Shown: piece after piece, positions 22,605 through 42,537 of the stretch
Numbering within the stretch: position 1 is the first letter of the stretch
Layout of the letters: each line of letters begins with the position of its first letter
Assembly (NCBI GenBank): GCA_017615975.1
Contig: JAFZYZ010000085.1
Location: 1 to 47,996 of the forward strand
Direction of reading: 5' to 3'
Length of the DNA: 47,996 nt
DNA from: Clostridia bacterium
Lineage (GTDB): Bacteria > Bacillota > Clostridia > Christensenellales > Borkfalkiaceae
Notes under the pieces: model-generated
What the model was told of the DNA's origin: nothing
Database searches by the model: none
What the model saw: the letters and a program-made list of their open reading frames with translations, nothing else
Translations under genes and position numbers: made by a program

Positions 22605-22614
22605 AATTCCCTCT

Positions 22615-25461: not shown

Positions 25462-25473
25462 AAAACTCCTGCT

Positions 25474-26361
25474 TTAACCCTTTAATCCACCTACGGCAAT
25501 AGTCCCTACTATTTTGTTCCTAAACGCAAGGAATAAAACGATAATAGGCAACGCAACCATCATACACGCCACCATAACGTAAGGCACGCAAATCTCGTTC
25601 CCCGTCGAATTAGCATACCTATAAAGTCCGTACGCAATAGTCGGATGACTCGGGAAATATATTAAAGACGCCTGCCAGTCGTTCCATAGCGTTATAAACT
25701 GCATAAGTACCAAAGCGAAGAAAGTGGGAACCGCCATCGGAAGCATTATCTGAAAGAATACCCTGAAATGCGATGCCCCGTCCACGAAAGCGGCTTCCGC
25801 GTAAGACCAACTTACACTTTTAAACATTGCGTAAAAAATAAGGAAATTCGTTCCGCCGAACATTATCTTCATCAAAAAGATACCTATCATATTATCGTAG
25901 AATCCCAGATTATTCATTATTTCGAGTTCCGCGGGAAGCGTTCCGATAACCGGCAAAATCATAAACACTATTACTATGGTATAAATAGCGCTAGTTAATA
26001 CACATTTATATTTCGCAACTACGTAAGCCACCACACAGTTCGTAAAAATCGTAATCAAGGCGCTTACTATTGCGTATGAAAAGCCGTTGAAAAACATTTC
26101 GGGCAAATAAACGTCCCCTGAACTCGTTTCTATCTTGAAATATTTAAATACTGCCGAATAATTACTGAAAGCCCAACCTTCGCGCGGCCATCCGAGAAAC
26201 ACCTCGATGTCGGCGTCTAACGAAAAAATAAACTCGTCGTCGGATTTTAACGAAACCAAAAACGTCCATATTATAGGGAACAACAATGATATGGTGTATA
26301 AAATAAGTATAACGAATAATACGATTGCAAACACCGAAGTTAAAGTTTTTCTTTTAACCAT
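25474..26361 (-). CDS. ABC sugar transporter permease, MalG type
   Basis: 295 aa with six transmembrane segments. The cytoplasmic EAA loop that docks the ATPase is EAAFVDGASHFRVFFQIMLP near residue 190. The N-terminal segment and the C-terminal GTIAVGGLKG ending are typical of MalG-like permeases for oligosaccharides. It forms the importer with the neighbouring permease and solute-binding lipoprotein. No ATP-binding subunit gene is in the operon, so a shared MsmX-type ATPase encoded elsewhere is expected. A GGGGGG ribosome-binding site precedes the ATG. Confidence 0.92.
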   Translation of the reverse strand: MVKRKTLTSVFAIVLFVILILYTISLLFPIIWTFLVSLKSDDEFIFSLDADIEVFLGWPREGWAFSNYSAVFKYFKIETSSGDVYLPEMFFNGFSYAIVSALITIFTNCVVAYVVAKYKCVLTSAIYTIVIVFMILPVIGTLPAELEIMNNLGFYDNMIGIFLMKIMFGGTNFLIFYAMFKSVSWSYAEAAFVDGASHFRVFFQIMLPMAVPTFFALVLMQFITLWNDWQASLIYFPSHPTIAYGLYRYANSTGNEICVPYVMVACMMVALPIIVLFLAFRNKIVGTIAVGGLKG

Positions 26362-26373
26362 ATTATCCCCCCG

Positions 26374-27312
26374 TTAAAATTCCGCACTCGGCCCGAATTT
26401 TTCAAGCAAATATTTAACAAGCAACGTGATAGGCGCGGCGACCATAGTAAACAGCACGCCGAACGCGCTGGCGTACGGATAGTCCCTTAATTGTGCGTGA
26501 TTACCGATAACCCTTACGAACATATAATAGCCCAAATTGCTTATATCTTTCGGCGCTTCCGCGTCGTAAAAGTTATAAAGATTATTTTGGTTAGTAAATA
26601 AGCCCGCAACGCCCGCGACTATAAACACGGTAATCGTCGGGAAAATCAGCGGCAAAGTTATAAGCCTGAATTCCTTCCAAAGCGATATGCCTTCTAACTG
26701 CCCGACTTCTATAAGGTCTTCGGGTATTCTTGTCATAGCGCCTAAATAGAGAATAACGTTAGCACCTAAATTAACCCAAGAATTATAATATATAAAGACG
26801 CCGAGTTTTGTATAATCCTTAAAAACGCTTAATTCCGGTTTTCCGAGTAAATAAGGCAACACTTTTTCCACGAGATTTTTGAACATAAGCGTCATAATAA
26901 TCGTAGATAACATCTGCGGTAAATACGCCATTATCGTAAATAATTTAGAACCCGGTATCTTTTTGTATATTATGTATGTAATAAAAATCGAAAGGGGCAT
27001 CGTGAAAAGTAATCCGACTAAATAAAATATAACCGAATTTTTAAACGCCCATATTACTTCTTGGTCGTTAAACAAATTACCGATGGCTTCCCCGAAGTTC
27101 TTGCCTAAACTTGAAAAGGGCAGAAATTCGTAAGAACCTTTTTTATCCTCTACTACGTATTCTTTCAACGAAAGTAAAACCGAATTCAGTTTAACGCCTA
27201 AACTGAATACGCAAAAGAAGAGAATCGGCACGGCAAGCATACAGGCAATAAAAATATATCTGTCTTTTTTGCCCGCAAAACTCGTATTTGTTTTTTCTTT
27301 AATCGCTTTCAT
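26374..27312 (-). CDS. ABC sugar transporter permease, MalF type
   Basis: 312 aa from ATG 27310-27312 with GGAG 8 nt upstream; the codon before it is TTG and is less likely. Six transmembrane segments, with the EAA loop as EVGQLEGISLWKEFRLITLP near residue 210. A periplasm-facing loop of about 50 aa (VVEDKKGSYEFLPF onward) follows TM1. The closing segment reads APITLLVKYLLEKFGPSAEF. Partner of the MalG-type permease 12 nt downstream and the solute-binding protein 15 nt upstream. Confidence 0.92.
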   Translation of the reverse strand: MKAIKEKTNTSFAGKKDRYIFIACMLAVPILFFCVFSLGVKLNSVLLSLKEYVVEDKKGSYEFLPFSSLGKNFGEAIGNLFNDQEVIWAFKNSVIFYLVGLLFTMPLSIFITYIIYKKIPGSKLFTIMAYLPQMLSTIIMTLMFKNLVEKVLPYLLGKPELSVFKDYTKLGVFIYYNSWVNLGANVILYLGAMTRIPEDLIEVGQLEGISLWKEFRLITLPLIFPTITVFIVAGVAGLFTNQNNLYNFYDAEAPKDISNLGYYMFVRVIGNHAQLRDYPYASAFGVLFTMVAAPITLLVKYLLEKFGPSAEF

Positions 27313-27327
27313 CAACTATTCTCCATT

Positions 27328-28941
27328 TTATTTAACGTTCTTACTCCATTCTGAAGGACCTGCGGAGTATAGTGCGTTAAAATACTGTTGAACGGTAACG
27401 CTGCTAGTGGCAGAAGCCTTAAAATTTTCCAACGGATTGTTAAGCGGCAAGCCGTTAGGCGCCGTGCAGTCCCATTCCCAACCTAAATTAAAATAATTGA
27501 AATTTCTGAAAATCTTTTCATTTGCACAAATAGTATAACAAATGTCCGAATTATGCGCCGCTTCCCACGTCGATTGATAATAGTAAGGCATTGCCGCCAA
27601 ATCGGTTTCAGACATTTCGTAGTTCATAAATCTTACGATTCCGCTTGTTTTGGTGCTTAAAACCAACATTTCGTCGGTATTTAAGAAAGCAAGCAGTTTT
27701 TTACAACCTTCGGGTTCGGTTGCGTTTTTACGGATACATAAAGTAGAATTCTGCGACGAAATATAATAAGTCGTCTTTTCCGCAGAACACCCCTCGAACC
27801 ACGGGAAAGGCATAACGCCGAATTGTATATCTTCACCTGACCTTTCCGAAGTTTGCGCGATAACGTCTTCCGCTTCGTTATGCCAGTGTCCGCCGTCGAT
27901 AAAGAAGGCTATCGGCTTAATATTGCCACCTCTCTTGGAATTATATTCACTCTGCACGTAGCGTTTCTGTGAAGTCAGATGACTCTGATTAGACTTGCCC
28001 GATTGAGAATCGTAATACCCGTTTTCGATAACGTCTTTACAGAATTGAAGTGCAAATTTTCTGCCGGAAGTATTCCTTAACTTCCAAGCGTTGGTGTTGT
28101 CTATTGCTGTTTCGGCAATACCGTCGCCGTCAAAGTCGTAAGAACCGTTCATTGTCTTGAAAATATTAAACACGTCTTTGCCGTCTTGCGCTACTCCAAG
28201 CGCATGCGCGAAATGTTTAGTATATCCATCTACGTAAGACCAGAAAAAAGGAGTCATCCCTTCTTCTTCCGACATCTGTTCAAGCAATTCCGTAAAATCT
28301 TCGTAAGTTACGGGCAAACCGTCGTCGTAAGTGCCGGCAACCCCGTCCTGTCCTACGGTCAAATCACCGTCAGCCTTACACCAGTCGCCGTCTTTATCTT
28401 TAAACAGTTTCTTCCTATTAAATAAATCTCTGTTATAATTTAACGTCCAAAGCCCGCCGCCGAAAGGAACGTTATAATAATGCCCGTCATAACTTAAGCA
28501 ATAATCTTTCATATCTTGCCATGTGCCGGTCATTTTACTTTCTATCGTTTTGGTTTCCGTTATAGGAATCTCGGAATCTGCAAGATATTCGTTAAGCGGA
28601 GTAGTCATAACGTCCGTTATGTCCATAAATTCGTCCTGTTCAAGGAAATCGTATAAATTGATACCCGCATAGAAAATATCCTGCTTTCCGGTTACTATTT
28701 TGCTCTGTAAGTCTTCATAAGACTTCTCATAGTCCACTTTAACGTAATATTCAGGATACATCTCCTGGAACTTTTCTATTGCCTTGTCAAGCCATTCTCT
28801 TCCCCAACCGCCTTGATAGCATCCGAATTCGATAATGGTTTTTCCTTCCCACGGTTTAGGTCCGCCGCCACAAGCGAAAGAACCGAACGTGATCGTAAAC
28901 GTTAATAATGCCAAGACTAATAAACGAACTAATTTTTTCAT
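27328..28941 (-). CDS. ABC extracellular solute-binding lipoprotein, family 1
   Basis: 537 aa with lipoprotein signal FTITFGSFACGGGP; the Cys at residue 24 is lipidated. The mature part starts with KTIIEFGCYQGGWGREWLDK and has the two-lobed family 1 layout with many Trp and Tyr residues (PFFWSYVDGY, GGHWHNEAEDV, MPFPWFEGC), suggesting binding of a long glycan fragment. Two Asp-rich stretches (FKDKDGDWCKADGD; DGDGIAETAIDN) look like Ca2+-binding DxDxDG loops. AAGGAG lies 8 nt before the ATG. It is the substrate-capture component of the importer; a pectin-derived oligosaccharide is inferred from context. Confidence 0.92.
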   Translation of the reverse strand: MKKLVRLLVLALLTFTITFGSFACGGGPKPWEGKTIIEFGCYQGGWGREWLDKAIEKFQEMYPEYYVKVDYEKSYEDLQSKIVTGKQDIFYAGINLYDFLEQDEFMDITDVMTTPLNEYLADSEIPITETKTIESKMTGTWQDMKDYCLSYDGHYYNVPFGGGLWTLNYNRDLFNRKKLFKDKDGDWCKADGDLTVGQDGVAGTYDDGLPVTYEDFTELLEQMSEEEGMTPFFWSYVDGYTKHFAHALGVAQDGKDVFNIFKTMNGSYDFDGDGIAETAIDNTNAWKLRNTSGRKFALQFCKDVIENGYYDSQSGKSNQSHLTSQKRYVQSEYNSKRGGNIKPIAFFIDGGHWHNEAEDVIAQTSERSGEDIQFGVMPFPWFEGCSAEKTTYYISSQNSTLCIRKNATEPEGCKKLLAFLNTDEMLVLSTKTSGIVRFMNYEMSETDLAAMPYYYQSTWEAAHNSDICYTICANEKIFRNFNYFNLGWEWDCTAPNGLPLNNPLENFKASATSSVTVQQYFNALYSAGPSEWSKNVK

Positions 28942-28942
28942 A

Positions 28943-31693
28943 CTATTTACTCCTTTTTGTCGTTTGTTTTTTTATAAAAGCGATATAAGCGCTAACCGCA
29001 GCAAAAGCCAAAACGATTATGGCAGTTAATCCGTCGACGTCTATCGCCGAAGAACATCCCCCGCCTTCGCTTACGGCAACCGTATATTCCGTTTCGCCGG
29101 TATTGCCGGACATATCCGTCGCGGTAATCTTTACGGTGTAATCCCCCGCTTTATCCGCGTAAAATCCGCCGTTATACACCGACACGTCTTTACCGTTAAA
29201 GAAAACCTTTACGGATATTTCCATATCGTTATCGGAATTATCGCTAACCTTATAACCGCCGATTTTCACGAAATCCCCGGAAGAAGCGGTTTTATCTACG
29301 TTGCCCAACGTTATAATAGGTTTTTCGCTATCGATAATTCTATAGAAATACTCGTAGGTTTCTGTAATACCCGATAAGGTCGCGCTATACACGACTTTGT
29401 AAACGCCTAAATCTTTGGGCGTAAACGTGCCGTTTTTAATTTCTATCTCTTTGCCGTTAAGCAAAACGGTAATACTGCCGCCGCTTATAACGTTTCCGTT
29501 AATATCTTTTGCCTGCGGTACGATTAAGGTTATGCCGTGTCCTACGTTTTCCGTGCGGTCTTCAACGGGCGCGATATTTATTACCGCCGACTTAACGGTA
29601 ATAAACAGATTTTTATTTACGGTAAAACCCTGTGCCGTACTAACCGTTGCGGAAACGTAATAATTTTTAAGTTCGCTTAACTCCAACGACAAAGTGCCCG
29701 CATTGTACGCGTCGCTAACGTCGGTAAACTCACCGCCGTCCTGATATATACTAACGGTTATAGGTAAATTACTTGCAAATAAAGTCTTCGGAATAGAAAT
29801 CACACTGTCTTTAAGCGCAATAAGTTTAATACTGTCGTCTTCTAACGCACTGCCCTTGTCTAAAACCGTATTGTTCGGAATATTGTTTACGGTAATGGTC
29901 GGCAAATCCGAAAAAACGACTATCTTCCTTTCAGCCGTCAACTGTACGTCCGCTAATTCCGCCGACAAAAAACTGTAAACGTACTTTATAACGTAATTTC
30001 CGTCGCCGTTAAAAGACGCCAAAGTGTATTTTAAAAACGCCCCGCCGTTTTTACTTACCGTTATATCCGCTTTGTACAGATTGCCGGAAATCTTGCCCGA
30101 ATAGGCGTTATACACTTCGAAATCGGCTTTTGACAAAATGCCCGCTTTACTGCTATCGTTTACGACGGTAGTCGTGTTTATACCATCCGCCGATTTCAGG
30201 AAATACGCGTTAACGTGATAAATCCGTTCTTTAGTCGTCTCTCTGCCAAGCAAATCTACGGAAGAATAAGTAAAGACGTAATCTCCTTCTTCTGTAAATT
30301 TGTATTCCAGTTCTCGCAAATCGTTTTTAGAATATATTTCAGAACCGTTTTTGCTTATCGTAAGGTTTACTTGCGGTAAATAGTCCTGAACGTCGTTAAA
30401 CACCGCACACCCTGCGTCAACAGTCTCGTACACGACGTAGTCCCTAACGTATCCGTAAGGCGTCAAAACCGTTCCGCCGCTTTCCACCGTACCAAGTGAA
30501 TAGGTATAAGACACCTTGTTTGAAGTAAGCGGATTTATCGCGGAATATATTAAAGAATACCTTCCCGCCTGCGTAGGTGTAAACTGCATATCCTGGGCGT
30601 AATTTCTTTCCGACAGCACCACGTTGCCGTTCGAATCCTTAATTTCTATACGCCCGCTTTCGGAAACGAAATCGAACAATTGCCCTTCCGAGAAAAATTG
30701 CGGTTTAGGAATAGTAAACGGTACGTTTTTAACGGCTTTCGTATGATTTTCCACAGAAAAATTGCTTACCAGGCTTTTCCCGCCCAAAGAAACCAAAAGT
30801 ATAGACGGATCGTCCGTCTTTAAATCACCGAAAGAAACGGTACAAGTTATATCTTCAAGATTAGTAAAGCCGTTCCATTGCACATCGTCCGTGGTGTATT
30901 TCTTATCCAAATCGCGGATTCTGTATCTTCTTTCGCCGTTAGGAAGTTTTTTTAATCTTTCCGGCACTTGCCAGTTCGGATGCGCCGATTTAAGATCTTC
31001 TTCGCACCTATGCCCGCTGTCGGCGTACACCGCGTTCTCTTCCGCGCTGTAATAGATGCTTATAACGCCGTTGCTGCCCCTTTTAAAAGACTGTCCGTAT
31101 TTATCGCGGAAAGGAAAATTGTTGCCGGTATACGTGTCCAAGGTCTTGGCATATCCGTCGAACGAATACGGCGATATAGACGCGTAAGCGTTGCTTAAAT
31201 ATTCGTCCGTGTCCTGTTCAGAAGGATTGCCGTCAACGCTGGAAAAACCGTTTCTGTGGTGTTCGCCCAAAAGTTTCTGATTTTCACCGCTTGCAAAACC
31301 TTGCAGATAATTTGCGGAATAGTCCGTTCTCGGTGCAAAACCTATAGACAGTGCTTTTCCGTCGGCATCTGTAAACGTGAAAACGAGTTTTTCAAAGTCG
31401 GGCGAATAAGTGTTTGCAGTTCCCCTGACCGAAGGCGTGATGACGAATTGCAAAATCGGCGTTTCCAGATCGCTGCCAGTTAAATCAACCGTTTCGGAAA
31501 ACGTTTTTACGTTGGTTAAATCCAAACGATACCCGACGTAGTCCGTACCGTCGTAATTTACCAAATACGGCGCGTACGTTCCGTCAGCCAGCGTCTTTCT
31601 GGGAGCGTTTAACGCTCCCAGAAATAAAAACGATGCTATAAAACACGCAATAATCGGCGCTATGCGAAAAATTCTAAAACGTTTAGAGTTCAT
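28943..31693 (-). CDS. Large surface protein with Ig-like domains and C-terminal anchor (2)
   Basis: 916 aa. The signal peptide runs to NAPRKTLADGTY. Residues about 40-320 form a beta-rich domain with GERRYRIRDLDKKYTTDDVQ, WNGFTN and SILLVSLGGKSL, related in layout to the other exported proteins of the operon. Several Ig-like modules follow, the last ending GDYTVKITATDMSGNTGET. The C-terminus is SEGGGCSSAIDVDG, about 20 hydrophobic residues and IKKQTTKRSK: a Gly-Cys motif, a membrane helix and a basic tail, like a tripartite sorting signal. No clear ribosome-binding site; it starts 2 nt after the previous stop and is probably translationally coupled. Confidence 0.8.
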   Translation of the reverse strand: MNSKRFRIFRIAPIIACFIASFLFLGALNAPRKTLADGTYAPYLVNYDGTDYVGYRLDLTNVKTFSETVDLTGSDLETPILQFVITPSVRGTANTYSPDFEKLVFTFTDADGKALSIGFAPRTDYSANYLQGFASGENQKLLGEHHRNGFSSVDGNPSEQDTDEYLSNAYASISPYSFDGYAKTLDTYTGNNFPFRDKYGQSFKRGSNGVISIYYSAEENAVYADSGHRCEEDLKSAHPNWQVPERLKKLPNGERRYRIRDLDKKYTTDDVQWNGFTNLEDITCTVSFGDLKTDDPSILLVSLGGKSLVSNFSVENHTKAVKNVPFTIPKPQFFSEGQLFDFVSESGRIEIKDSNGNVVLSERNYAQDMQFTPTQAGRYSLIYSAINPLTSNKVSYTYSLGTVESGGTVLTPYGYVRDYVVYETVDAGCAVFNDVQDYLPQVNLTISKNGSEIYSKNDLRELEYKFTEEGDYVFTYSSVDLLGRETTKERIYHVNAYFLKSADGINTTTVVNDSSKAGILSKADFEVYNAYSGKISGNLYKADITVSKNGGAFLKYTLASFNGDGNYVIKYVYSFLSAELADVQLTAERKIVVFSDLPTITVNNIPNNTVLDKGSALEDDSIKLIALKDSVISIPKTLFASNLPITVSIYQDGGEFTDVSDAYNAGTLSLELSELKNYYVSATVSTAQGFTVNKNLFITVKSAVINIAPVEDRTENVGHGITLIVPQAKDINGNVISGGSITVLLNGKEIEIKNGTFTPKDLGVYKVVYSATLSGITETYEYFYRIIDSEKPIITLGNVDKTASSGDFVKIGGYKVSDNSDNDMEISVKVFFNGKDVSVYNGGFYADKAGDYTVKITATDMSGNTGETEYTVAVSEGGGCSSAIDVDGLTAIIVLAFAAVSAYIAFIKKQTTKRSK

Positions 31694-31695
31694 AC

Positions 31696-34203
31696 TTAAT
31701 CTTTATTCGTGCTTTTCTTTTTTGCAATAAATACGCAGACCGCAGCCAATAACGTAGCGAGTATAATCAATTCCGCACCGCTGCCAAATACGTTGCTGCC
31801 GCAACCGGAGGATTTAGATTCCTGCTTTTTATAAGACGCGTATAAAACGGTGTCTTCGGTTATCGTTTCCCCGTTATACGCTTGAGTAAGTTCTTCATCG
31901 GTAAATAAGCCTTTGAAATCGTATCCGGATTTTTTAAGCAACTCGCTTGCGGCAACCGCAGTATCGTAATCAATAGTCAATACCACGTCGTCGAAGTTAG
32001 CACTCTTAATGGTTATGGTTAACTGTTTAACGTTATATTTAGCAGTCAGAGTTATATCCGACGTAAGAACGTCTTCGCCGAACTTAAATTCTTCCGTACC
32101 GAGATACCAAGCGTCGAATACGAATCCCGTCTTTTCGGGAACTTCGCTAAACGCCGCAACGGGCGTCAACGCGTCGTACTGTTTGGCAGCAATCGCACTA
32201 CCGCCGTCGGTATCGAAAGTTATCGTATATTTTTTAAGTCTGTAAACCGCGTTTGCAATTACGTCGTCTGTGATGGCAACGTCGTCCGCGATATCCCAAC
32301 CGACTGCGTCGTAATGTTCTTTCGCGGGAATATTCGGCGTTTCAACTTCGCCGAACAACGTGCCGTTTAACAAATCGCTTACCGTACCAACGGTTTCGCC
32401 GTCCGCTTTGAAAGTTACGGAAACGTCCGGCAGTTTTTCAAATTCCACTTCGTACGTAATATTCTCCGAAGCGTCTTCAACGGTAAGCAAATACATACCG
32501 TTCACTACTTCGTTGCTTACGTCCGCGCCGCCTACCGTCAAAGCCTTGAACTTATACCCTGCATCGGGAGTTATTACGAAGATAAAGTCGTCGGGTGTTA
32601 AGCTCACGGAATCCCCGTTGTTTGCTATGTTCACACTGCCGTTCGTTATAGGCGCACTCGGATAAAGCACGGCGAGAACGGTTGCGGAAGTTTTAAGCGT
32701 AAAGTCGTCGTTGCTGACTACAAACGTAAGTTCCCCTACTCTATCAAGCGCGTATTCCCAGTCAGCATCGGCAGTTTCGGTTGCTATCAAGTTATCGCCT
32801 TCGTAAATCTTAACAGTTGCAGATTCTATCGCAACGACGTCTTCAGTCGTAAGCGTAAAGTCCGCAAGGGTTATTTTCCTGCCGTAATATAAACCGTCCG
32901 AAACCGTAAAATCAGCGATTTCAACGAGTTTGTCGTCAGTTTTTATCGCCGTATTGAAATCTACAGTCCCCTTGGAAGTATCATCTACAAAATATTCCAC
33001 GGAATAAGCGCCCGCTTTATCGAAATCAAATGTCGTTCCGTCGTAATTTTCAGTAGTTGCACCGTCAGGGTCAGTAATATTTACGGAAAAATCGATAGGT
33101 GCGGTTTCGCCGTTAGCGAAACTAAAACTTACAGGCGCAGGAATAGCGGTATTTCCGCTTGCAATAAGCCCCGACTTCGGTAAACTAACAACTTGGTCAA
33201 AATCGTCAATACCCATTATGCAGAATCTCGTAAACTCGTCGGTACTTCTCTTTGTCGTTCTCATTATACTTACGGAGAGTTTAACCTTATTGTCCGTAAA
33301 TCCGGGGAAATAATGCTCGTCGTCAGCAGAGAAATTTTTGAAATCACGGATATGCACGCCGTTTATAGAAAGCGAACCGTTAGCGTTATCGAATTGTACT
33401 TTTATAGAATTTGCGGACGTTCTCGAGAAGTTTATTTGCGTTTTAGTATGTCCGTATTCTGCGGTGTTCAGATAACAACCGTCATTAGGTTTACCGTCCC
33501 CTCCAACAGCGCCGTCGTGCAAATCACTACCGACTATGCTGAATATAGCGTTTCCGTTATAATTATTAGTATCGAAGCCCGCTTCGCCGATATAAACGTC
33601 ATCTGAAGTGTGGTTGGTCTTTTCCCAAGTGCCTGCTGCAGCCGCTATTATGCTGTCTTTCGTTTGTGTCGCATCCCAGTTAGAATACGCCGCCCAAACA
33701 AACAGCGCGATATAATTATTCGGATTCGACGCGTCTTCTATAATAATCTTAAACCCTTTGTTCTGCCAGTTATCGTTAGTCCCCGGGAAAGCAAGTTCTA
33801 TTAACGTATCGCTTGCCGTATTGTCGGAAATATCGACTACGCCGTTAAACTTAACGCCCGCGGAATATTTTACGCTCGGGAAATTGATGAGCGGCGGGTT
33901 GGTATCGTTAGATAAATCCGTATTATCGACAAGCGCCGCCGTCTTGTTTCTGGTCTGCACCATAACGCCGCTACCGGAAAAGTTGGTATTAGTAAACGTA
34001 CCGTAAGATATATCGTTTACGTAAGCGTCTAACCCGTTGTCGCCGACAGGCGTAAACCATTCGTCCACTATATTTTGGACAGTTTCGTCGTTTGCCATAG
34101 CGCTGGCACGATTTACAGTAGTAAAATTACCTACGCCGAAAGCAGTAAACGCTAACGCAAAACAAGTAAGTAAAGATACTAAAATTTTCTTTTTAGTTTT
34201 CAT
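31696..34203 (-). CDS. Surface protein with repeated beta domain, InlB repeat and anchor
   Basis: 835 aa. The signal peptide ends near TVNRASAMAND. Residues about 48-334 are one copy of the repeated domain found three times in the 1910-aa neighbour, running from WFTPVGDNGLDAYVNDISYG to DEFTRFCIMGIDDFD. Ig-like modules follow, then an InlB B-type repeat at about 654-728 (YTITFDTDGGSAIAAKQYD; FVFDAWYLG) and a second partial one. The C-terminus is KSSGCGSNVFGSG, a hydrophobic helix and AKKKSTNKD, a Cys-containing sorting-like tail matching the next gene's. AAGGAG precedes the ATG. Likely a glycan-binding surface protein; the ligand is unknown. Confidence 0.82.
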   Translation of the reverse strand: MKTKKKILVSLLTCFALAFTAFGVGNFTTVNRASAMANDETVQNIVDEWFTPVGDNGLDAYVNDISYGTFTNTNFSGSGVMVQTRNKTAALVDNTDLSNDTNPPLINFPSVKYSAGVKFNGVVDISDNTASDTLIELAFPGTNDNWQNKGFKIIIEDASNPNNYIALFVWAAYSNWDATQTKDSIIAAAAGTWEKTNHTSDDVYIGEAGFDTNNYNGNAIFSIVGSDLHDGAVGGDGKPNDGCYLNTAEYGHTKTQINFSRTSANSIKVQFDNANGSLSINGVHIRDFKNFSADDEHYFPGFTDNKVKLSVSIMRTTKRSTDEFTRFCIMGIDDFDQVVSLPKSGLIASGNTAIPAPVSFSFANGETAPIDFSVNITDPDGATTENYDGTTFDFDKAGAYSVEYFVDDTSKGTVDFNTAIKTDDKLVEIADFTVSDGLYYGRKITLADFTLTTEDVVAIESATVKIYEGDNLIATETADADWEYALDRVGELTFVVSNDDFTLKTSATVLAVLYPSAPITNGSVNIANNGDSVSLTPDDFIFVITPDAGYKFKALTVGGADVSNEVVNGMYLLTVEDASENITYEVEFEKLPDVSVTFKADGETVGTVSDLLNGTLFGEVETPNIPAKEHYDAVGWDIADDVAITDDVIANAVYRLKKYTITFDTDGGSAIAAKQYDALTPVAAFSEVPEKTGFVFDAWYLGTEEFKFGEDVLTSDITLTAKYNVKQLTITIKSANFDDVVLTIDYDTAVAASELLKKSGYDFKGLFTDEELTQAYNGETITEDTVLYASYKKQESKSSGCGSNVFGSGAELIILATLLAAVCVFIAKKKSTNKD

Positions 34204-34282
34204 AATTTTTCTCCTTATTTTTCTATAAATTTATATCTGATAAATTTATTTCAATTAAAATAATTATTCTTTCGGTAAAAAC
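34204..34282 (-). other. 79-nt spacer with paired palindromic repeat
   Basis: The spacer is AT-rich and contains the 10-nt palindrome ATAAATTTAT twice (34225-34234 and 34240-34249), separated by ATCTG, just upstream of the AAGGAG of the next gene. It could fold into a weak stem-loop or be a protein site. No terminator and no convincing promoter are visible here. Confidence 0.35.
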
Positions 34283-37200
34283 TTACAAACTAGAAACAAG
34301 TACGTCTCTTTCCACATATTTTATACCGAGATTATTACACATAGTCTTAAACGTCGTCTTATCCGCGCCCGAATAACTAAACTTTATCTGTAAGTATCTG
34401 TAGAAAAGCGATAAATAATCCAAACGTCTGGTAATTTCCGCGTTTCCGCTGACTGCAGCGTATGCGGACGTAAAATATCCTTTTACGGTGTTTACCCAAG
34501 ACGAAGAATATTTACTGCTTGTTACGTCGTCTTTCCCTATGCGGACAGTCGTCGAACCGTAAGCAGTGTTTATCGCGGAAATATAATTCTTAACGTAGGT
34601 TGCCGCCGCACCGTAATAAGCGTCTATAAATTCGTTCATCAAATCGTTGTATGAAAGATAAGTATCCCACATCATTCTGCTTCTGACGTAGTTATCCATT
34701 TCTTCAAACGGAAACAAAGCGTTACCGTTGCCCATAGTAGTACCAATGCCCTGCGCCATAACTTCCATAACGCCGAGAGACTTAAAGTATTCTATATTAT
34801 TCTCTAACTGTTTCCAGAACGGGAAGGGTTCGAGATAATCTGTGAAATCCGAACGGTAATCCCATACGCCGAGATGCGCCGCTTTAGCGTACCAACCGTC
34901 GAAAATAGACTTCCAACTCGTGCTGTTCAAATACGAGACGCTATCATTATAGTTGGACGAATTGTTATACGCTTTATCGTAATACGCAGTGTAAGGACAA
35001 ATACGGACTATAACGTTATCCGCGGCGGTTTGTACCGTAGGCGGAAGCGTGTACGCCATATAAGCGTAAGCCATAAGATAAATTTCACGGGCAGGGCAGT
35101 TAGCCGCCTGCCAGTCTTTAATATCCCCTGCGAGTTTATTTATAAATCTTAAATACACGTCGCTTTTGCCGTTGCCGTAAGAAGAACAAGCCGAACAGGT
35201 ACAATATTTAGAGTTGTCGCCGATACCTATTTCAAATATGGTAGAATAAGCGTTGTTTCCGTCGGTGATAACGGCTTTAAGTTTATCAAGTATGATATCG
35301 TACATACCGTTATCGTTATTATAGGCTTTGGAAAAACAAATCTGTTTAACCTCACCGCTTTCCTTAACGTACCAACTATCGTGAGACGCGCCGTACGTGG
35401 TTGCCTGATTGTAGTTATTCCAAGTACTATCGTAAGGTAAGAAATAAGTCAAAAGACTTTGGTCGTCAAGTTGCCAGGCAAACGGCGTGCCGCCGTCGTA
35501 TCTGCCCGAATTATAAACGGGAGAAGTGTACCAGTTATTTCTTACGTAACGCGAATTCGTATCGTAAAGATGTACGTTGTTATATAACGAACTGCGTTCC
35601 AAAGGAATATTGTTCGTAGCTGCCGCAACCCACTCGTCACGCTGTGTATTGCTTTCAAAATACGCGAATCTCGTAGAAGTACTCACAAGAGAACGGTATT
35701 TGATATCGGGATAATCTTCGTAATCGAAATATTTTAACGACTGCGTAGAACCGCTGTTTATCACCTGACAGTCGTGCGCGTAATATTTATAGCCGAAATT
35801 CTCTTCCAAGAACCTGTAAATGCCGTAATAAACAGAGTAATCGTCTTCGGCGTAAATAACCACGCCGTCGCCGTAAGATTTAATCTTAAAACCGCCCTGT
35901 TCTTTCGTATAATTCATAAGGGAAACTCCCGCTTCTCTTCTGAACGCCGTATTTCCCAAAGAAATATATTTGGAAGTGCTGTTATCGTACGTATCAGTGA
36001 TAGGCAAGGTAACGTCGTAAGAGTCGGATATTATATCCTGTAATTCCTGCGCAGCGGAATTTAAAGTAGTACTTGCGCTGTTGGGAATTAAGATTTTATA
36101 ATCGGAATTTCCAGTGCTTATAATGTTTTTAGACTGCGTAGAAGTTTCCTTACGTTTTACCTGCAACGCTATCTGAAGTTTACCGTCCTGTTCGTACATA
36201 GCAAGGTTGGTGTCGTCCGGAACGTGTCCTTCACCTGCCGTAATAATCGTTCCGTCCCAAGAAAGTGCACGCACTCCGTTAGCACCGGAAACGGTCATAT
36301 ACATAATATTTCCGCTAGACGAATAAGACACGCTGTCTATCGTATAATCTGCGCTACCGGTTGCTTTTTTTTCCCCTAAACCGTTTATTTCAACCACTTG
36401 GTTTAGATAGTGATTATCAAGGAAAGTCTTTTCCGCAGCGGTAGGCGCGTCAACGCCGGTATCGTTATAAGCCGCAAGCGCAACGTCGTAAGCGCTTCTT
36501 GAATTATCCGTTTCGTTATAAGACGCGTAGAAATACGCCTCGGTACTGTCGTAATAAGTAACTTTGACGTAAGAACGTACGGAAAACGCGCGCGCGATAT
36601 TCTTCGCCTGAATATCCGTCATAGTAATATAGAAATAGGTGTCGTTATCATCGTCTTTCTCGTAGTTTTCCGCCGCGACTTTCTTTAAATATCCTGCGGA
36701 TACGTTTTCTACCGTGAATTCATGGTCTTCTATATAATCGGTCGGCGCAACCAACATACCGAACTCGGATACAATATTAACAGTCTCGTCAATATTTTGA
36801 TTTTGCCCCCTTAACCAGCCTTTAAATCTCAAACCGGTACGAGTGCCTAATCTTACCCACGCGCCTGCTGTAGTCCAGAAATGCGCGTAAGCGATATCGT
36901 AAGTAAGGTTTTCGCTACCTATCACCACGGAAGTAAGTTCGCTGATACTATGGAGATCTTCGCCCACCATATAACCTACGACGTATTTGTTATAATCCGC
37001 CATATCAAACAATTCACCGACGTTGCAAGTATCGCCACTTACAACTTTAAACGTTCTGCCGGTAGTGCTGTCCGTTATAGTTTTGTAATTGATAAGCGTC
37101 TCACCGTCGTTAATGATTTTATTTGCAAGAGAACCGTAAGCAACTTTCTGCAAAGAAATGCCGTCGATATTCATTATGCAGAATCTCGTAAATTCGGCAG

Positions 37201-40015
37201 TATTTTTTCTAACCGACCTGAAAACACCGACGGAAACCTTAACTTTACCGTCCGTAAAGCCGTCGAAATAATTGCTACCGCCGTCTGCCGCATAACGCTT
37301 GAAATCACGGACGTGCACGCCGTTTATCGATAACGTACCGTTAGCATAGTCAAATTGTACTTTTATAGTGTTTGCGGACGTTCTCGAGAAGTTTACGCTC
37401 GTGTTAGTGTGTCCGTGTTCTGCGGTATTCAAGTAACATCCTTCGTCACTGTCTTCGCCAAAGTCGCCGTCAACCGCGTCGCCAACTTTAACGAGACGCG
37501 CCGTACCGCCGCTATAATTTTCGGTATCGAAAGCCGCTTCACTTATATAAACCGTTCCGTCTTTTGTCGTTTCTTCCCAAGTGCCTGTCGCGGCGGCTAC
37601 CATGCTGCCACCGGTCGCATCCCCGTTTGCATACGGAGACATTATAAATAACGCAATATATTTACCGGGGGTGGTCGCGTCCTCTATAATTATTTTAATA
37701 CCCCTTGTCTGCCAGTAATCGTCAGTTCCGGGGAAAGCAAGTTCTATTAAAGTATCGCTTGCCGTATTATCGGAAATATCTATAGCCGAATCAAGTTTGA
37801 CGCCGGGTGCATATTTATCGGAAGGCAAATTGATAAGCGCTGAAGAGGTATTAGCACCGCTTGACGGTTGGTTTCTGGTTTCAACCATCAAACCGCCGCC
37901 GTTTATATACGTACCGGTAAATTCACCGTAAGATAAACTGTTGACGTATTGCGTGTCGCCGACTTTGGAAAAACCTAAATAAAGGCTGCTTGCGTCTACG
38001 TAATCTTCATTACCGTCGTAAAGATTTTCTATGCCGTAATAACTGACGTTGTTGCTACCGTCCGCGGCAAACGAATTGCCGTCTATATTCATTATGCAGA
38101 ATCTCGTAAACTCGTCGGTACTTCTCTTCGTAGTTCTCATTATTCCTACGGAGAGTTTGACCTTATTGTCCGTAAATCCGGGGAAATAATGCGTGTCGTC
38201 AGCAGAGAAATTTTTAAAATCACGGATATGCACGCCGTTTATAGAAAGTGTGCCGTTAGCGTTATCGAATTGTACTTTTATAGAATTTGCGGACGTTCTC
38301 GAGAAGTTTATTTGCGTTTTAGTATGTCCGTATTCTGCGGTGTTCAGATAACAACCGTCACTAGGTTTACCGTCCCCTCCAACAGCGCCGTCGTGCAAAT
38401 CATCACCGACTATGCTAAATATAGCGTTTCCTTTATAATTATTAGTATCGAAGCCCGCTTCGTTAACAAAAACGTCGCTTCCGCTTTCAGTCTTTTCCCA
38501 AGTGCCTGCTGCAGCGGCTATTATGCTGTCTTTCGTTTGTGTCGCATCCCAGTTAGAATACGCCGCCCAAACAAACAGCGCGATATAGTTATTCGGATTC
38601 GACGCGTCTTCTATAATAATCTTAAACCCTTTGTTCTGCCAGTTGTCGTTAGTTCCGGGGAAAGCAAGTTCTATTAAGGTTGTACTTGCCGTATTGTCGG
38701 AAATATCGACTACGCCGTTAAACTTAACGCCCGTGGAATATCTTCCCGAAGGGAAATTGATAAGCGGCGGGTTGGTGCCGTTGTCGTTTTCCGTGTGACT
38801 GACAAGTTCCGCCGTCTTATTTCTGGTCTGAACCATAACGCCCGCGCCGGAAAAGTTGGTATTAGTAAAAGTGCCGTAAGATACGTTATTAACATAAGAT
38901 ACCAGTTCACCATCACCTACGGGGGTGAAATTAGAAACGAGCAGGTCTTTATTTATAGTGCTGTAAGACGGAGTCGTTAAATCAAGATTGCTATACGATA
39001 CATTGTTGCTACCGTCCGCGGTAAAATCGTTGCCGTCTATATTCATTATACAGAATCTCGTGAACTCGTCGGTACTTCTCCTCGTAGTTCTTATTATTCC
39101 TACGGAAAGTTTGACCTTATTTCCCGTAAATCCGGGGAAATAATGCGTGTCGTCAGCAGAGAAGTTTTTGAAATCACGGATATGAACGCCGTTTACAGAA
39201 AGCGAGCCGTTAGCGTTGTCGAATTGTACTTTTATAGAGTTTGCGGACGTTCTCGAGAAGTTTACGCTCGTTTTAGTATGTCCGTATTCTGCGGTGTTCA
39301 GATAACAACCGTCATTAGGTTTACCGGTTCCGCCTATCGCACCGTCGTTTGTATCACTACCGACTATGCTGAATATAGCGTTTCCGTTATAATTATTAGT
39401 ATCGAAGCCCGTTTCGCTGACATAAACGTCGCTTCCGCCCTCGGTCTTTTCCCAAGTACCTCCCGCAGCCGCTATTACACTACCGCCTGTCGCGTCCGTA
39501 TTTCCATACGCACTCCAAACAAACAGCGCGATATAGTTATTCGGATTTAACGCGTCTTCTATAATGACCTTAAATCCCCTGTTCTGATAATTATCGTTAG
39601 TCCCGGGGAAAGCAAGTTCTATTAAAGTATCGCTTGCCGTATTGTCGGAAATATCGACTACTCCGTCAAACTTAGCGCCCGCGGAATATTTTACCGAAGG
39701 GAAATTGATAAGCATCGGGTTGGTGGTGTTATCATTATCCGTATTATTGACAAGCGCCGCAGTCTTGTTTCTCGTCTGCACCATTACGCCGCCGCCAGAG
39801 AAGTTGGTATTAGTAAACGTGCCGTAAGATATATCGTTTACGTAATCCACCAAGCCATCGTCGCCGACTGCGGTAAAATAACTTGCAAAAGTGTTTTTAT
39901 TTACCGTGGTTTCATACGCGGACTTTGCGGGAACTATCCCGCTTATGCCTATCGACATACAAAGTGCCGCAATTACAGTCAATAAAGGTAAAAATATTCT
40001 TTTCTTCGTTCTCAT
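34283..40015 (-). CDS. Giant exported protein: three repeated beta domains plus DUF4838 region
   Basis: 1910 aa with signal peptide (to VPAKSAYE). Three copies of a domain of about 285 aa lie at residues about 43-327, 360-647 and 680-955. Each starts with a (V)GD...YVN...SYG(T/E)F core, continues through DNTASDTLIELAFPGT(N/D)D and GCYLNTAE(Y/H)GHT, and ends FTRFCIMNIDG. Residues about 965-1300 are a linker region. A GH67-like N-terminal domain (about 1310-1430, SDYKILIPNSASTTLNSAAQ) leads into a DUF4838 region with GIGDNSKYCTCSACSS near 1608, paralogous to the lipoprotein at 20523-22604. No membrane anchor or sorting tail is seen. It probably joins glycan binding to an enzymatic module. AGGAG precedes the ATG. 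Confidence 0.85.
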   Translation of the reverse strand: MRTKKRIFLPLLTVIAALCMSIGISGIVPAKSAYETTVNKNTFASYFTAVGDDGLVDYVNDISYGTFTNTNFSGGGVMVQTRNKTAALVNNTDNDNTTNPMLINFPSVKYSAGAKFDGVVDISDNTASDTLIELAFPGTNDNYQNRGFKVIIEDALNPNNYIALFVWSAYGNTDATGGSVIAAAGGTWEKTEGGSDVYVSETGFDTNNYNGNAIFSIVGSDTNDGAIGGTGKPNDGCYLNTAEYGHTKTSVNFSRTSANSIKVQFDNANGSLSVNGVHIRDFKNFSADDTHYFPGFTGNKVKLSVGIIRTTRRSTDEFTRFCIMNIDGNDFTADGSNNVSYSNLDLTTPSYSTINKDLLVSNFTPVGDGELVSYVNNVSYGTFTNTNFSGAGVMVQTRNKTAELVSHTENDNGTNPPLINFPSGRYSTGVKFNGVVDISDNTASTTLIELAFPGTNDNWQNKGFKIIIEDASNPNNYIALFVWAAYSNWDATQTKDSIIAAAAGTWEKTESGSDVFVNEAGFDTNNYKGNAIFSIVGDDLHDGAVGGDGKPSDGCYLNTAEYGHTKTQINFSRTSANSIKVQFDNANGTLSINGVHIRDFKNFSADDTHYFPGFTDNKVKLSVGIMRTTKRSTDEFTRFCIMNIDGNSFAADGSNNVSYYGIENLYDGNEDYVDASSLYLGFSKVGDTQYVNSLSYGEFTGTYINGGGLMVETRNQPSSGANTSSALINLPSDKYAPGVKLDSAIDISDNTASDTLIELAFPGTDDYWQTRGIKIIIEDATTPGKYIALFIMSPYANGDATGGSMVAAATGTWEETTKDGTVYISEAAFDTENYSGGTARLVKVGDAVDGDFGEDSDEGCYLNTAEHGHTNTSVNFSRTSANTIKVQFDYANGTLSINGVHVRDFKRYAADGGSNYFDGFTDGKVKVSVGVFRSVRKNTAEFTRFCIMNIDGISLQKVAYGSLANKIINDGETLINYKTITDSTTGRTFKVVSGDTCNVGELFDMADYNKYVVGYMVGEDLHSISELTSVVIGSENLTYDIAYAHFWTTAGAWVRLGTRTGLRFKGWLRGQNQNIDETVNIVSEFGMLVAPTDYIEDHEFTVENVSAGYLKKVAAENYEKDDDNDTYFYITMTDIQAKNIARAFSVRSYVKVTYYDSTEAYFYASYNETDNSRSAYDVALAAYNDTGVDAPTAAEKTFLDNHYLNQVVEINGLGEKKATGSADYTIDSVSYSSSGNIMYMTVSGANGVRALSWDGTIITAGEGHVPDDTNLAMYEQDGKLQIALQVKRKETSTQSKNIISTGNSDYKILIPNSASTTLNSAAQELQDIISDSYDVTLPITDTYDNSTSKYISLGNTAFRREAGVSLMNYTKEQGGFKIKSYGDGVVIYAEDDYSVYYGIYRFLEENFGYKYYAHDCQVINSGSTQSLKYFDYEDYPDIKYRSLVSTSTRFAYFESNTQRDEWVAAATNNIPLERSSLYNNVHLYDTNSRYVRNNWYTSPVYNSGRYDGGTPFAWQLDDQSLLTYFLPYDSTWNNYNQATTYGASHDSWYVKESGEVKQICFSKAYNNDNGMYDIILDKLKAVITDGNNAYSTIFEIGIGDNSKYCTCSACSSYGNGKSDVYLRFINKLAGDIKDWQAANCPAREIYLMAYAYMAYTLPPTVQTAADNVIVRICPYTAYYDKAYNNSSNYNDSVSYLNSTSWKSIFDGWYAKAAHLGVWDYRSDFTDYLEPFPFWKQLENNIEYFKSLGVMEVMAQGIGTTMGNGNALFPFEEMDNYVRSRMMWDTYLSYNDLMNEFIDAYYGAAATYVKNYISAINTAYGSTTVRIGKDDVTSSKYSSSWVNTVKGYFTSAYAAVSGNAEITRRLDYLSLFYRYLQIKFSYSGADKTTFKTMCNNLGIKYVERDVLVSSL
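37150..39885 (-). repeat. Three tandem copies of an approx. 285-codon domain repeat
   Basis: Approximate copies: 39035-39885, 38075-38935 and 37150-37975; a fourth lies in the neighbouring gene at about 33200-34060. Copies 1, 2 and the one in the neighbour share long identical DNA stretches, for example the 20-mer ATTTGCGGACGTTCTCGAGA near 33408 and 38285, and near 39237 with one change. Copy 3 (37150-37975) is more diverged. This points to recent duplication or gene conversion. Confidence 0.85.
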
Positions 40016-40264: not shown

Positions 40265-41293
40265 TTACTTTTTTAACACTCTTTTGTAATTAGCGCCTAT
40301 CCTGTCCCAAAGTTTTATCGGATCTTTCGCTGCGCAACTAGTACCAAGCCCGCCGCGATAAGTCCAAGTGCCAAGCCTGTCCACACCCATACTCTCGTAT
40401 AAATCTACCACCTTGTCTATCTGGTCGAAATCTTCCGGCTGGGTGCTATATCCCAAAAGCCACCTTTCCGCATCTTTACCGTATTTGTGCGCCATCTTCA
40501 CCGTTCTTTCGGTTATATTCTTAAAGAAACTCTCCGGTTTCGTCCAGTCTATTATCGTGGATGCAAGCACGTCGAAATACGGACAAGCCGCTACCATTTC
40601 CCAGTTATCGTATCCGCGAAGTTCCGTATTGTAGTATGTCTGACTGGTCGCGTGCACGCATACCGTTATTTCAAGTTCCGGTTTTATCTCTTTCAGCGTC
40701 TTGGAACAGTCGGCAAGCGTCTTTAACGCTTCTCTCCAACGGAAATTCTTTACGTCGTCGTTTAATATCTTCGGCATCTCGTAGCCGTAATAATCTTCAA
40801 ACTTCTTTTTGCACTCCGGACACCTGCAAGCCCAGTCTTCCCCCGCACCGTAAGATATAGCCGTGTTCGCACGCGGCAACGCGTAGTGCGGTTCGTCCCA
40901 GAAAAACCCGTCTATCTCCGTCTCCCGCGCAAGTTTTACGCATATCCCCGTAAAATAATCCCTGAAAGCATTACTCGTAAAACACGCAGCGTTTAAAGTT
41001 TCTCCGGTAAGTGCCGATACCTGACGGTGATGAATATTGTTCTGCAAAAACAAACTAACCTGTTCGCCGCCGAAATATTTGCCTATTCCCCAAGTGTCCG
41101 CTATAACTCTTAATCCGACTTTGTGCCCAGCCTTTACTATCTCGTTGATATTCGGAAACCAGAAATCCATATCGAATTCCGTTATAGCAAGTATCACGGT
41201 GTCGCAACCGTGCGCTTTCATCTCTTCAAAATCTTTCTCCGCGTGTTCTACGTAATTTAATCCGTAATAACTGACCGACGTGTGTTTTATCAT
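40265..41293 (-). CDS. TIM-barrel glycoside-hydrolase-like protein
   Basis: 342 aa, no signal peptide. The pattern is that of a (beta/alpha)8 glycosidase-like fold: strands such as CDTVILAITEFDMDFWF and KVGLRVIADTWGIG, then EIDGFFWDEPHYALPR near residue 130, where the Asp/Glu sit as in GH catalytic strands. A CRCPECKKKFEDYYGYEMP insertion carries a CxCxxC motif. LEITVCVHATSQ and RWLLGYSTQP are later strands. It resembles uncharacterised putative glycosyl hydrolases next to DUF4838 proteins; no GH number can be given. It is the first gene of the long operon. AAGGAG lies 13 nt before the ATG, an unusually long spacing. Confidence 0.75.
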   Translation of the reverse strand: MIKHTSVSYYGLNYVEHAEKDFEEMKAHGCDTVILAITEFDMDFWFPNINEIVKAGHKVGLRVIADTWGIGKYFGGEQVSLFLQNNIHHRQVSALTGETLNAACFTSNAFRDYFTGICVKLARETEIDGFFWDEPHYALPRANTAISYGAGEDWACRCPECKKKFEDYYGYEMPKILNDDVKNFRWREALKTLADCSKTLKEIKPELEITVCVHATSQTYYNTELRGYDNWEMVAACPYFDVLASTIIDWTKPESFFKNITERTVKMAHKYGKDAERWLLGYSTQPEDFDQIDKVVDLYESMGVDRLGTWTYRGGLGTSCAAKDPIKLWDRIGANYKRVLKK

Positions 41294-41472: not shown

Positions 41473-42537
41473 ATGAAAATAAATTCCATCTATTCCATTA
41501 TCGAAAAAGATATTTTATCCGGAACTATCGGGAAAAGCGGGGACTTGTTTTTTACAACCGAAGAACTTATGGAAAAATATTCCGTTTCTTACATTACCGC
41601 TCTTAAACTTGCCAAAATGCTTATCGACAACAAGTTCCTTATATCTATCGGCAATAAAAAATTCATTATGAACGGTCTGTATCAGAAAAACAGTGCGTTG
41701 TATTCGCATATAGACGCACCGCGTAAAAAAATCGGAGTTGTTATTCAGGATATTACAAATCCCTTCTTCGCATCTATTACAAACTCTCTTAATTCGCTTA
41801 TTATGGAAAACGGGTTTACACCCGTAATTAAAATTTCCGATAAGTCTAACGAATCGGATATCCTTATTTCTTTTATTCAGGAAGGCTGCCAGGGCATAGT
41901 TTCTTTTTTCCAGAACAACACTCCTTATATGAAAGACGTTTACGGCAGGTTGCCCGTTCCCGTCGTCTTTATAAGCGACGACGTGCCCACCGAAAAACAC
42001 TGCATCGTCAATTCGGACAACTTGCGTTCGGGCTATCTCGCGGCAAAACATCTGACGGAGTGCGGCTATTCTTCTCTCTATTTTTGCGGGCTTTCCAAAA
42101 ACTTAAATAATCCGAGAGCGCAGGGCTTTCTGGATTTCATAAAAGAAAAAGGGCTGCCCTTCAACGACAGCCACGTTATTTATTTCGATATCTCAAACCC
42201 GTATCGAAATCATTACGTAATAAAAACTATTCTGAACGACACTGCTGACAGAATAGGTGTCTTCTGCTTCCACGACCTTATCGCGGAATATCTTTATAAC
42301 CTTTGCACTCTTAACGATATCGCCGTGCCGAATAAAGTCGGCATCATAGGCTACGATAAACTCGACGCTATGATGCCGTCTAATATCAATCTCACGACTT
42401 TTTCTTATTCGTTCAAAAATATCGCGAATTCTGCACTTAAATTGCTTATGGAAAATATGAACACGCTGATTTCACGAAAAAAAATAATAAGCGAAAATAC
42501 TTTCCTTTCTATAGGCAAAACCACCGCTAAACTTTAA
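41473..42537 (+). CDS. GntR/LacI-type transcriptional regulator
   Basis: 354 aa, the only gene on the plus strand besides the recombinase remnant. The N-terminal 70 aa are a GntR-type winged helix (IYSIIEKDILSGTIG; FFTTEELMEKYSVSYITALK as the recognition helix region). Residues about 85-350 are a LacI/GalR-like sugar-binding domain: IGVVIQDITNPFFASITNSL, GYLAAKHLTECGYSSLYFCG and KVGIIGYDKLDAM. AraR is the known example of this chimeric layout. It probably senses a sugar and controls the divergent long operon, and perhaps the GH28 operon with which it converges (6-nt gap). GAGAG precedes the ATG. Confidence 0.9.
   Translation: MKINSIYSIIEKDILSGTIGKSGDLFFTTEELMEKYSVSYITALKLAKMLIDNKFLISIGNKKFIMNGLYQKNSALYSHIDAPRKKIGVVIQDITNPFFASITNSLNSLIMENGFTPVIKISDKSNESDILISFIQEGCQGIVSFFQNNTPYMKDVYGRLPVPVVFISDDVPTEKHCIVNSDNLRSGYLAAKHLTECGYSSLYFCGLSKNLNNPRAQGFLDFIKEKGLPFNDSHVIYFDISNPYRNHYVIKTILNDTADRIGVFCFHDLIAEYLYNLCTLNDIAVPNKVGIIGYDKLDAMMPSNINLTTFSYSFKNIANSALKLLMENMNTLISRKKIISENTFLSIGKTTAKL

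Follow-up and report, generated by a model that had tools for sequence, protein, structure and literature searches.

The repeat shared by two surface proteins in the window (the whole 47,996-nucleotide stretch of a Clostridia bacterium contig analyzed here) is a recently tandem-duplicated branch of a domain family that we found, among the genomes sampled, only within the order of that bacterium, and its fold is probably concanavalin-A-like (ConA-like). The domain occupies a constant position in a gene cassette, flanked by a sugar importer and an enzyme that cuts glycans, and it therefore probably serves to grip glycans within a machine for nutrient uptake.

Repeat copies and the proteins that host them

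Three repeat copies lie in tandem in a 1910-aa secreted protein and a fourth in an 835-aa surface protein, exactly as the preliminary description had it. That description had confined the repeat to these two proteins, but diverged copies also occur beyond them, in proteins of 916 and 948 aa. The features are as follows.

34283..40015, minus strand: 1910-aa secreted protein with three domain copies, an uncharacterized linker, a GH67N-like segment, and DUF4838
38996..39895, minus strand: repeat copy 1, aa 41-340 of the 1910-aa protein
38051..38953, minus strand: repeat copy 2, aa 355-655 of the 1910-aa protein; query for AlphaFold model 1
37121..37990, minus strand: repeat copy 3, aa 676-965 of the 1910-aa protein; the oldest-diverged copy
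35810..36088, minus strand: GH67 N-terminal-like segment of the 1910-aa protein (22.4 bits, just under the Pfam cut-off of 24.3)
34580..35785, minus strand: DUF4838 region (PF16126; CAZy GH163) of the 1910-aa protein (E 7e-46 and E 1e-43)
31696..34203, minus strand: 835-aa surface protein with one domain copy, Flg_new/List_Bact repeats, and a C-terminal membrane anchor with a GCG motif
33184..34077, minus strand: single repeat copy of the 835-aa protein, aa 43-340
30737..31579, minus strand: diverged domain copy in the 916-aa anchored protein (28943..31693)
24520..25341, minus strand: diverged domain copy in the 948-aa secreted protein (22615..25461); query for AlphaFold model 2

The four copies are ~59-85% identical in pairwise comparisons over ~290 residues. 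More specifically, copy 1 shares 81, 60, and 82% identity with copy 2, copy 3, and the 835-aa copy, respectively, and copy 2 shares 81, 59, and 85% with copy 1, copy 3, and the 835-aa copy. The sequence blocks by which the repeat had been recognized start at aa 58/374/690 (YVN), 124/440/749 (DNTAS), 236/554/859 (GCYLNTAE), and 318/636/942 (FTRFCIM) of the 1910-aa protein and at aa 61/127/242/324, in the same order, of the 835-aa protein; the only correction is a small departure in copy 2, which reads DNTASTTLIELAFPGT. The conserved RDF and the GFT strands following it were likewise recovered, as VH(I/V)RDF and then GFT, in all four copies.

When copy 3 was used as a protein query against the whole 1.23-Mb genome, exactly four copy sites were returned, and the matches to the other three at E 1e-96 to 1e-100 exclude chance. 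The same proteins occur, with differing copy numbers, in separate assemblies of two relatives, L005 (= G012; 2+1 copies) and L006 (= G039; 3 copies). Given that these relatives come from metagenome-assembled genomes of their own, labelled Christensenella sp. UBA1259 and uncultured Clostridia bacterium, the repeats are real and not an assembly artefact. A tree placed copy 3 with copy 3 of L006 (support 100/99), and copies 1 and 2, the 835-aa copy, and the copies of L005 in a shallow, in part unresolved group. These positions indicate that one duplication predates the split of these species and that the others are more recent. Opposite the repeats, three plus-strand ORFs (36881-37333, 38189-38677, and 39143-39550; 135-162 aa) appear merely to shadow the coding sequence of the copies.

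The putative catalytic region that had been noticed beside the tandem copies is indeed a DUF4838/GH163 region, scoring 150 bits against a curated Pfam cut-off of 26.6. The 835-aa and 916-aa proteins carry C-terminal anchors and have no enzyme part. Domain proteins begin with hydrophobic, signal-peptide-like leaders and most DUF4838 partners have lipobox-like motifs; export of both is predicted on these sequence features.

Some further segments of these proteins deserve mention. The C-termini of the 835-aa and 916-aa proteins carry a Gly/Ser-rich Cys motif (SSGCGSN and GGGCSSA), followed by a hydrophobic stretch and then by a basic tail, and proteins of 855 aa (L027) and 1604 aa (L094; KKSGCGGEN) end similarly, which suggests a Cys-containing C-terminal sorting signal in the anchored proteins. 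In the 1910-aa protein, copy 3 is separated from the GH67N-like part by a segment (aa 975-1305; ~36100-37100, minus strand), TGLRFKGWL ... FGMLVAPTDYI ... FSVRSYVKVTYYDSTEAYFYA, that is common to 1584-aa and 1953-aa relatives and has no Pfam match. In addition, a second region in the C-terminal third of the 948-aa protein and its relatives gives weak domain-profile matches, which suggests a further, more diverged domain that may share the same fold.

The wider domain family and its predicted fold

A family profile that drew solely on distant relatives from other genomes, and so contained no sequence of the window, found all four repeats (E ~1e-17) as well as the window proteins of 948 aa (E 2e-18) and 916 aa (E 6e-13), and profile-profile comparison by hhalign gave a probability of 98.9 (E 1e-17). 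The repeat is therefore one branch, local and duplicated not long ago, of a larger family. On the whole genome, all domain copies detected by the relatives-only profile fall inside the window. The distant relatives are mutually 18-32% identical, and they have in common a V/I-D-x-S-D-N strand, a T-D-x-x-D-x-x-N-Y strand, a Y-D-Y strand, a D-L-D-D turn, and W/F-x-G-F-T-x-G-x-V-x-L-S-(I/V).

The four copies had no match in Pfam, NCBIfam, or PDB sequences, and profile searches with 16 diverse family members found no matching family in Pfam, NCBIfam, or the PDB. A phmmer search with the whole 1910-aa protein and searches with profiles of two family alignments, all against PDB sequences, returned chance matches only. 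No relatives appeared in viral contigs scanned with another alignment and with the 948-aa domain, nor in plasmids searched by tblastn. The repeat thus belongs to no named family of Pfam or NCBIfam, as had been claimed; that description was nevertheless incomplete: the repeat does not stand alone but is a branch, duplicated in tandem not long ago, of a large family that spans the order and keeps a constant place in its operons.

An order-wide sample of 297 genomes yielded 12 hits, spread over three families, and some genomes have at least 11 domain matches. A phylum sample gave no match outside the genome studied here, including 0 of 347 genomes outside the order, a count that may reflect the sensitivity limit of the profile.

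Two AlphaFold models were obtained, model 1 for copy 2 with an alignment of ten sequences and model 2 for the domain of the 948-aa protein, which is ~20% identical to the repeats; the sequences used came from the window, L005, and L006. Model 1 has a mean pLDDT of 59.7 and a pTM of 0.71. Its core strands lie at pLDDT 75-91, whereas an insert spanning residues 151-222 is poorly predicted (pLDDT <50), and no binding site is modelled with confidence; model 2 has a mean pLDDT of 56 and a pTM of 0.65. Foldseek with either model gave no match below E 1e-3 (TM ~0.3), and nothing below that value among viral structures. ConA-like proteins (PL7 lyases, legume-type lectins, GH16, and the GH43 C-terminal domain) nonetheless dominate both Foldseek lists and the VIA realignments. 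The first nine Foldseek rows of model 1 are PL7 alginate lyases, at a weak E of ~6e-3, and its VIA scores reach Z 10.8 with GH16 structure 7kr6 (193 residues, 4.1 A) and 9.6 with the legume-lectin domain 7elv. Model 2 matches legume lectins, GH16, PL7, and GH43 ConA domains at Z 8.8-9.9, with a best Foldseek E of 9e-3. The jelly-roll or lectin-like fold anticipated earlier is thus echoed by two predictions, and we regard a ConA-like beta-jelly-roll as probable, with moderate confidence. A disulfide between two conserved Cys of the repeat was considered and dropped, as a relative in G416 keeps just one Cys.

The cassette and its association with DUF4838

Outside the tandem repeats, the domain occurs in a cassette of five genes in the order substrate-binding protein, permease, permease, domain protein (~1000 aa), and DUF4838 (GH163) lipoprotein. 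The window holds one such cassette at 20523-28941, in which the 948-aa protein is the domain protein and the other members are as follows.

27328..28941, minus strand: substrate-binding lipoprotein of an ABC sugar importer, first cassette gene
26374..27315, minus strand: ABC permease 1 (PF00528)
25474..26361, minus strand: ABC permease 2 (PF00528)
20523..22673, minus strand: DUF4838 lipoprotein (E 8e-40), last of the five genes

Both DUF4838 regions detected in the genome fall within the window. Across the 251 genomes of a family sample, the domain was found in 106, DUF4838 in 118, and both in 101, so that 101 of the 106 domain-positive genomes also have DUF4838 (odds ratio 152); the p-value of 6e-45 is merely indicative, since it treats genomes as independent despite their shared ancestry. 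Position is stronger evidence than this count. Of 55 domain places for which a DUF4838 was listed on that contig and strand, 46 have it 2.4-2.7 kb further downstream. In 20 further stretches, picked non-randomly from our lists, a DUF4838 gene directly follows the domain gene in 19, and the order permease, domain protein, DUF4838 is kept in 18; the exceptions are L081, where the domain gene takes up the entire 3.1-kb contig, and L091, where no permease was detected. In both DUF4838 regions of the window (34580-35785 and 20913-21617, minus strand), and likewise in two relatives, a G-x-x-D segment is followed by a C-x-C-x-x-C motif, which could be a metal site.

Domain and DUF4838 are joined in one ORF in five genomes: the one studied here, G012 (two copies plus DUF4838, 1584 aa), and G020, G043, and G416 (three domain matches plus DUF4838, 1953-1955 aa). 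The 1910-aa protein accordingly unites the domain and enzyme halves of the cassette in a single chain, and since neighboring genes elsewhere are one gene here, a common task of the two is supported. The fused proteins have no transporter genes of their own adjoining; judging by the neighborhood, they may be coupled to the importer at 25474-28941.

Other genes of the window encode GH28, GH36, GH43, an esterase-like protein, sugar isomerase-type (SIS) proteins, and a PfkB kinase. The set is completed by a regulator that is transcribed divergently and has a sensor domain of the LacI type.

41473..42537, plus strand: regulator with a LacI-type sensor domain, also found beside the repeat genes of relatives

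By eye, the N-terminal part of this regulator is GntR-like, as in AraR, and its relatives stand beside repeat genes in L027-L030 and L058. Next to it, a 342-aa protein (40265..41293, minus strand) with sub-threshold similarity to DUF4434 and GHL10 is conserved beside repeat genes in L027 and L028; it is possibly an uncatalogued TIM-barrel glycosidase. The diet of these Clostridia, which have small genomes and very few isolates, is for that reason guessed from gene content. DUF4838 corresponds to CAZy family GH163 (PMC9870897), and the one activity that a review describes for it is that of an endo-acting enzyme on complex N-glycans (PMC10154615). The GH28, GH36, and GH43 genes hint at a plant glycan rather than N-glycans as the substrate here, and these together with the neighboring esterase gene make pectin a weak lead as the ligand.

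Proposed function and comparison with known systems

We postulate that the domain binds glycans for an uptake machine at the cell surface that also comprises the DUF4838 hydrolase and the ABC importer, a reading that we hold to be somewhat probable as a whole. The secreted domain protein would hold a polysaccharide or glycoconjugate at the cell surface, the neighboring DUF4838 (GH163-type) lipoprotein would cut it, and the co-encoded substrate-binding protein and two permeases would import the fragments. The 1910-aa protein would combine the binding and cutting halves, its three copies possibly providing avidity, and the 835-aa protein may display one copy on its membrane anchor.

ConA-like folds serve also as enzymes, adhesins, and protein-binding modules. 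The domain might itself be an enzyme of this fold, acting as a lyase or glucanase in the manner of PL7 or GH16, the families of its closest structural rows. However, none of the four copies contains the GH16 motif E-x-D-x(x)-E or the PL7 motifs R(S/T)E, Q(I/V)H, and YFK(A/V/S)G, conservation among 59 distinct family members falls mainly on Asp, Gly, Tyr, and Trp/Phe-Gly-Phe and on no Glu, and three tandem copies beside a separate enzyme domain suit binding better. A binding role thus appears more likely than catalysis, and we judge an enzymatic domain quite unlikely. Still less credible, indeed highly improbable, is a new fold whose resemblance to ConA-like proteins is no more than that of any beta-sandwich modelled at low confidence: mean pLDDT values below 60 and the Foldseek statistics would allow it, yet the models of two members only ~20% identical agree in placing a range of ConA-like families first, and Z rises to 10.8 over 193 residues.

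A surface adhesin or spacer, serving attachment to host, mucus, fiber, or other cells apart from nutrient uptake, would agree with the ConA-like A-domains of staphylococcal Aap, SasG, and Pls among the structural matches, with the C-terminally anchored, enzyme-free 835-aa and 916-aa proteins, and with tandem copy numbers that differ between relatives, as is typical of adhesins. We nevertheless consider it unlikely, given that the wider family nearly always lies between ABC sugar permeases and a DUF4838 gene and is fused to the DUF4838 enzyme in five genomes. Glycan binding for uptake remains our preferred reading.

The ConA-like superfamily is defined by its fold, and a sequence relation to a catalogued family is not required. 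With its legume-type lectins, GH16, PL7, and GH43 C-terminal domains our domain shares a predicted beta-jelly-roll topology (VIA Z up to 10.8), whereas it is only ~5-13% identical to them, has no Pfam, NCBIfam, or PDB profile match, and does not carry their GH16 and PL7 motifs. The catalytic part belongs to the same Pfam family as the B. thetaiotaomicron GH163 endo-beta-N-acetylglucosaminidase (PMC10154615; E 1e-43), but its neighborhood is the one that hints at plant glycans.

The window clusters a regulator, an ABC importer, and a polysaccharide-degrading enzyme, the same combination of importer, glycoside hydrolase, and regulator genes as in Gram-positive polysaccharide utilization loci (gpPULs; PMC5320581, PMC10318527). 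According to PMC10318527, those loci rely on enzyme-linked CBMs and have no surface glycan-binding protein, whereas the cassette adds a large, dedicated ConA-like protein between the permease and enzyme genes, several per genome. It therefore bears on whether Gram-positive loci truly lack dedicated surface glycan-binding proteins (PMC10318527). The family is unnamed by annotation pipelines and would, as the mark of a whole capture-cut-import cassette, make the carbohydrate loci of these Clostridia recognizable, and single domains can be expressed and tested on glycan arrays. We found no description of the cassette in the papers searched, which were open-licence ones and left most subscription journals aside. 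As in the SusD/SGBP PULs of Bacteroides, apparent surface glycan capture is encoded beside a transporter and an enzyme, in paralogous sets per genome; the importer here is of the ABC type and not SusC/TonB, the binding-protein fold is unrelated, and the gene set is of Gram-positive type. Tentatively, and at slightly less than even confidence, we propose that the five-gene cassette with its ConA-like/Ig-like surface protein may be an undescribed Gram-positive counterpart of SusD/SGBP: a glycan-capture machine, modular and paralogously expanded, that is confined to a single order of gut Clostridia, most of them uncultured, and that takes its most elaborate form in the fused tandem-copy proteins of the window.
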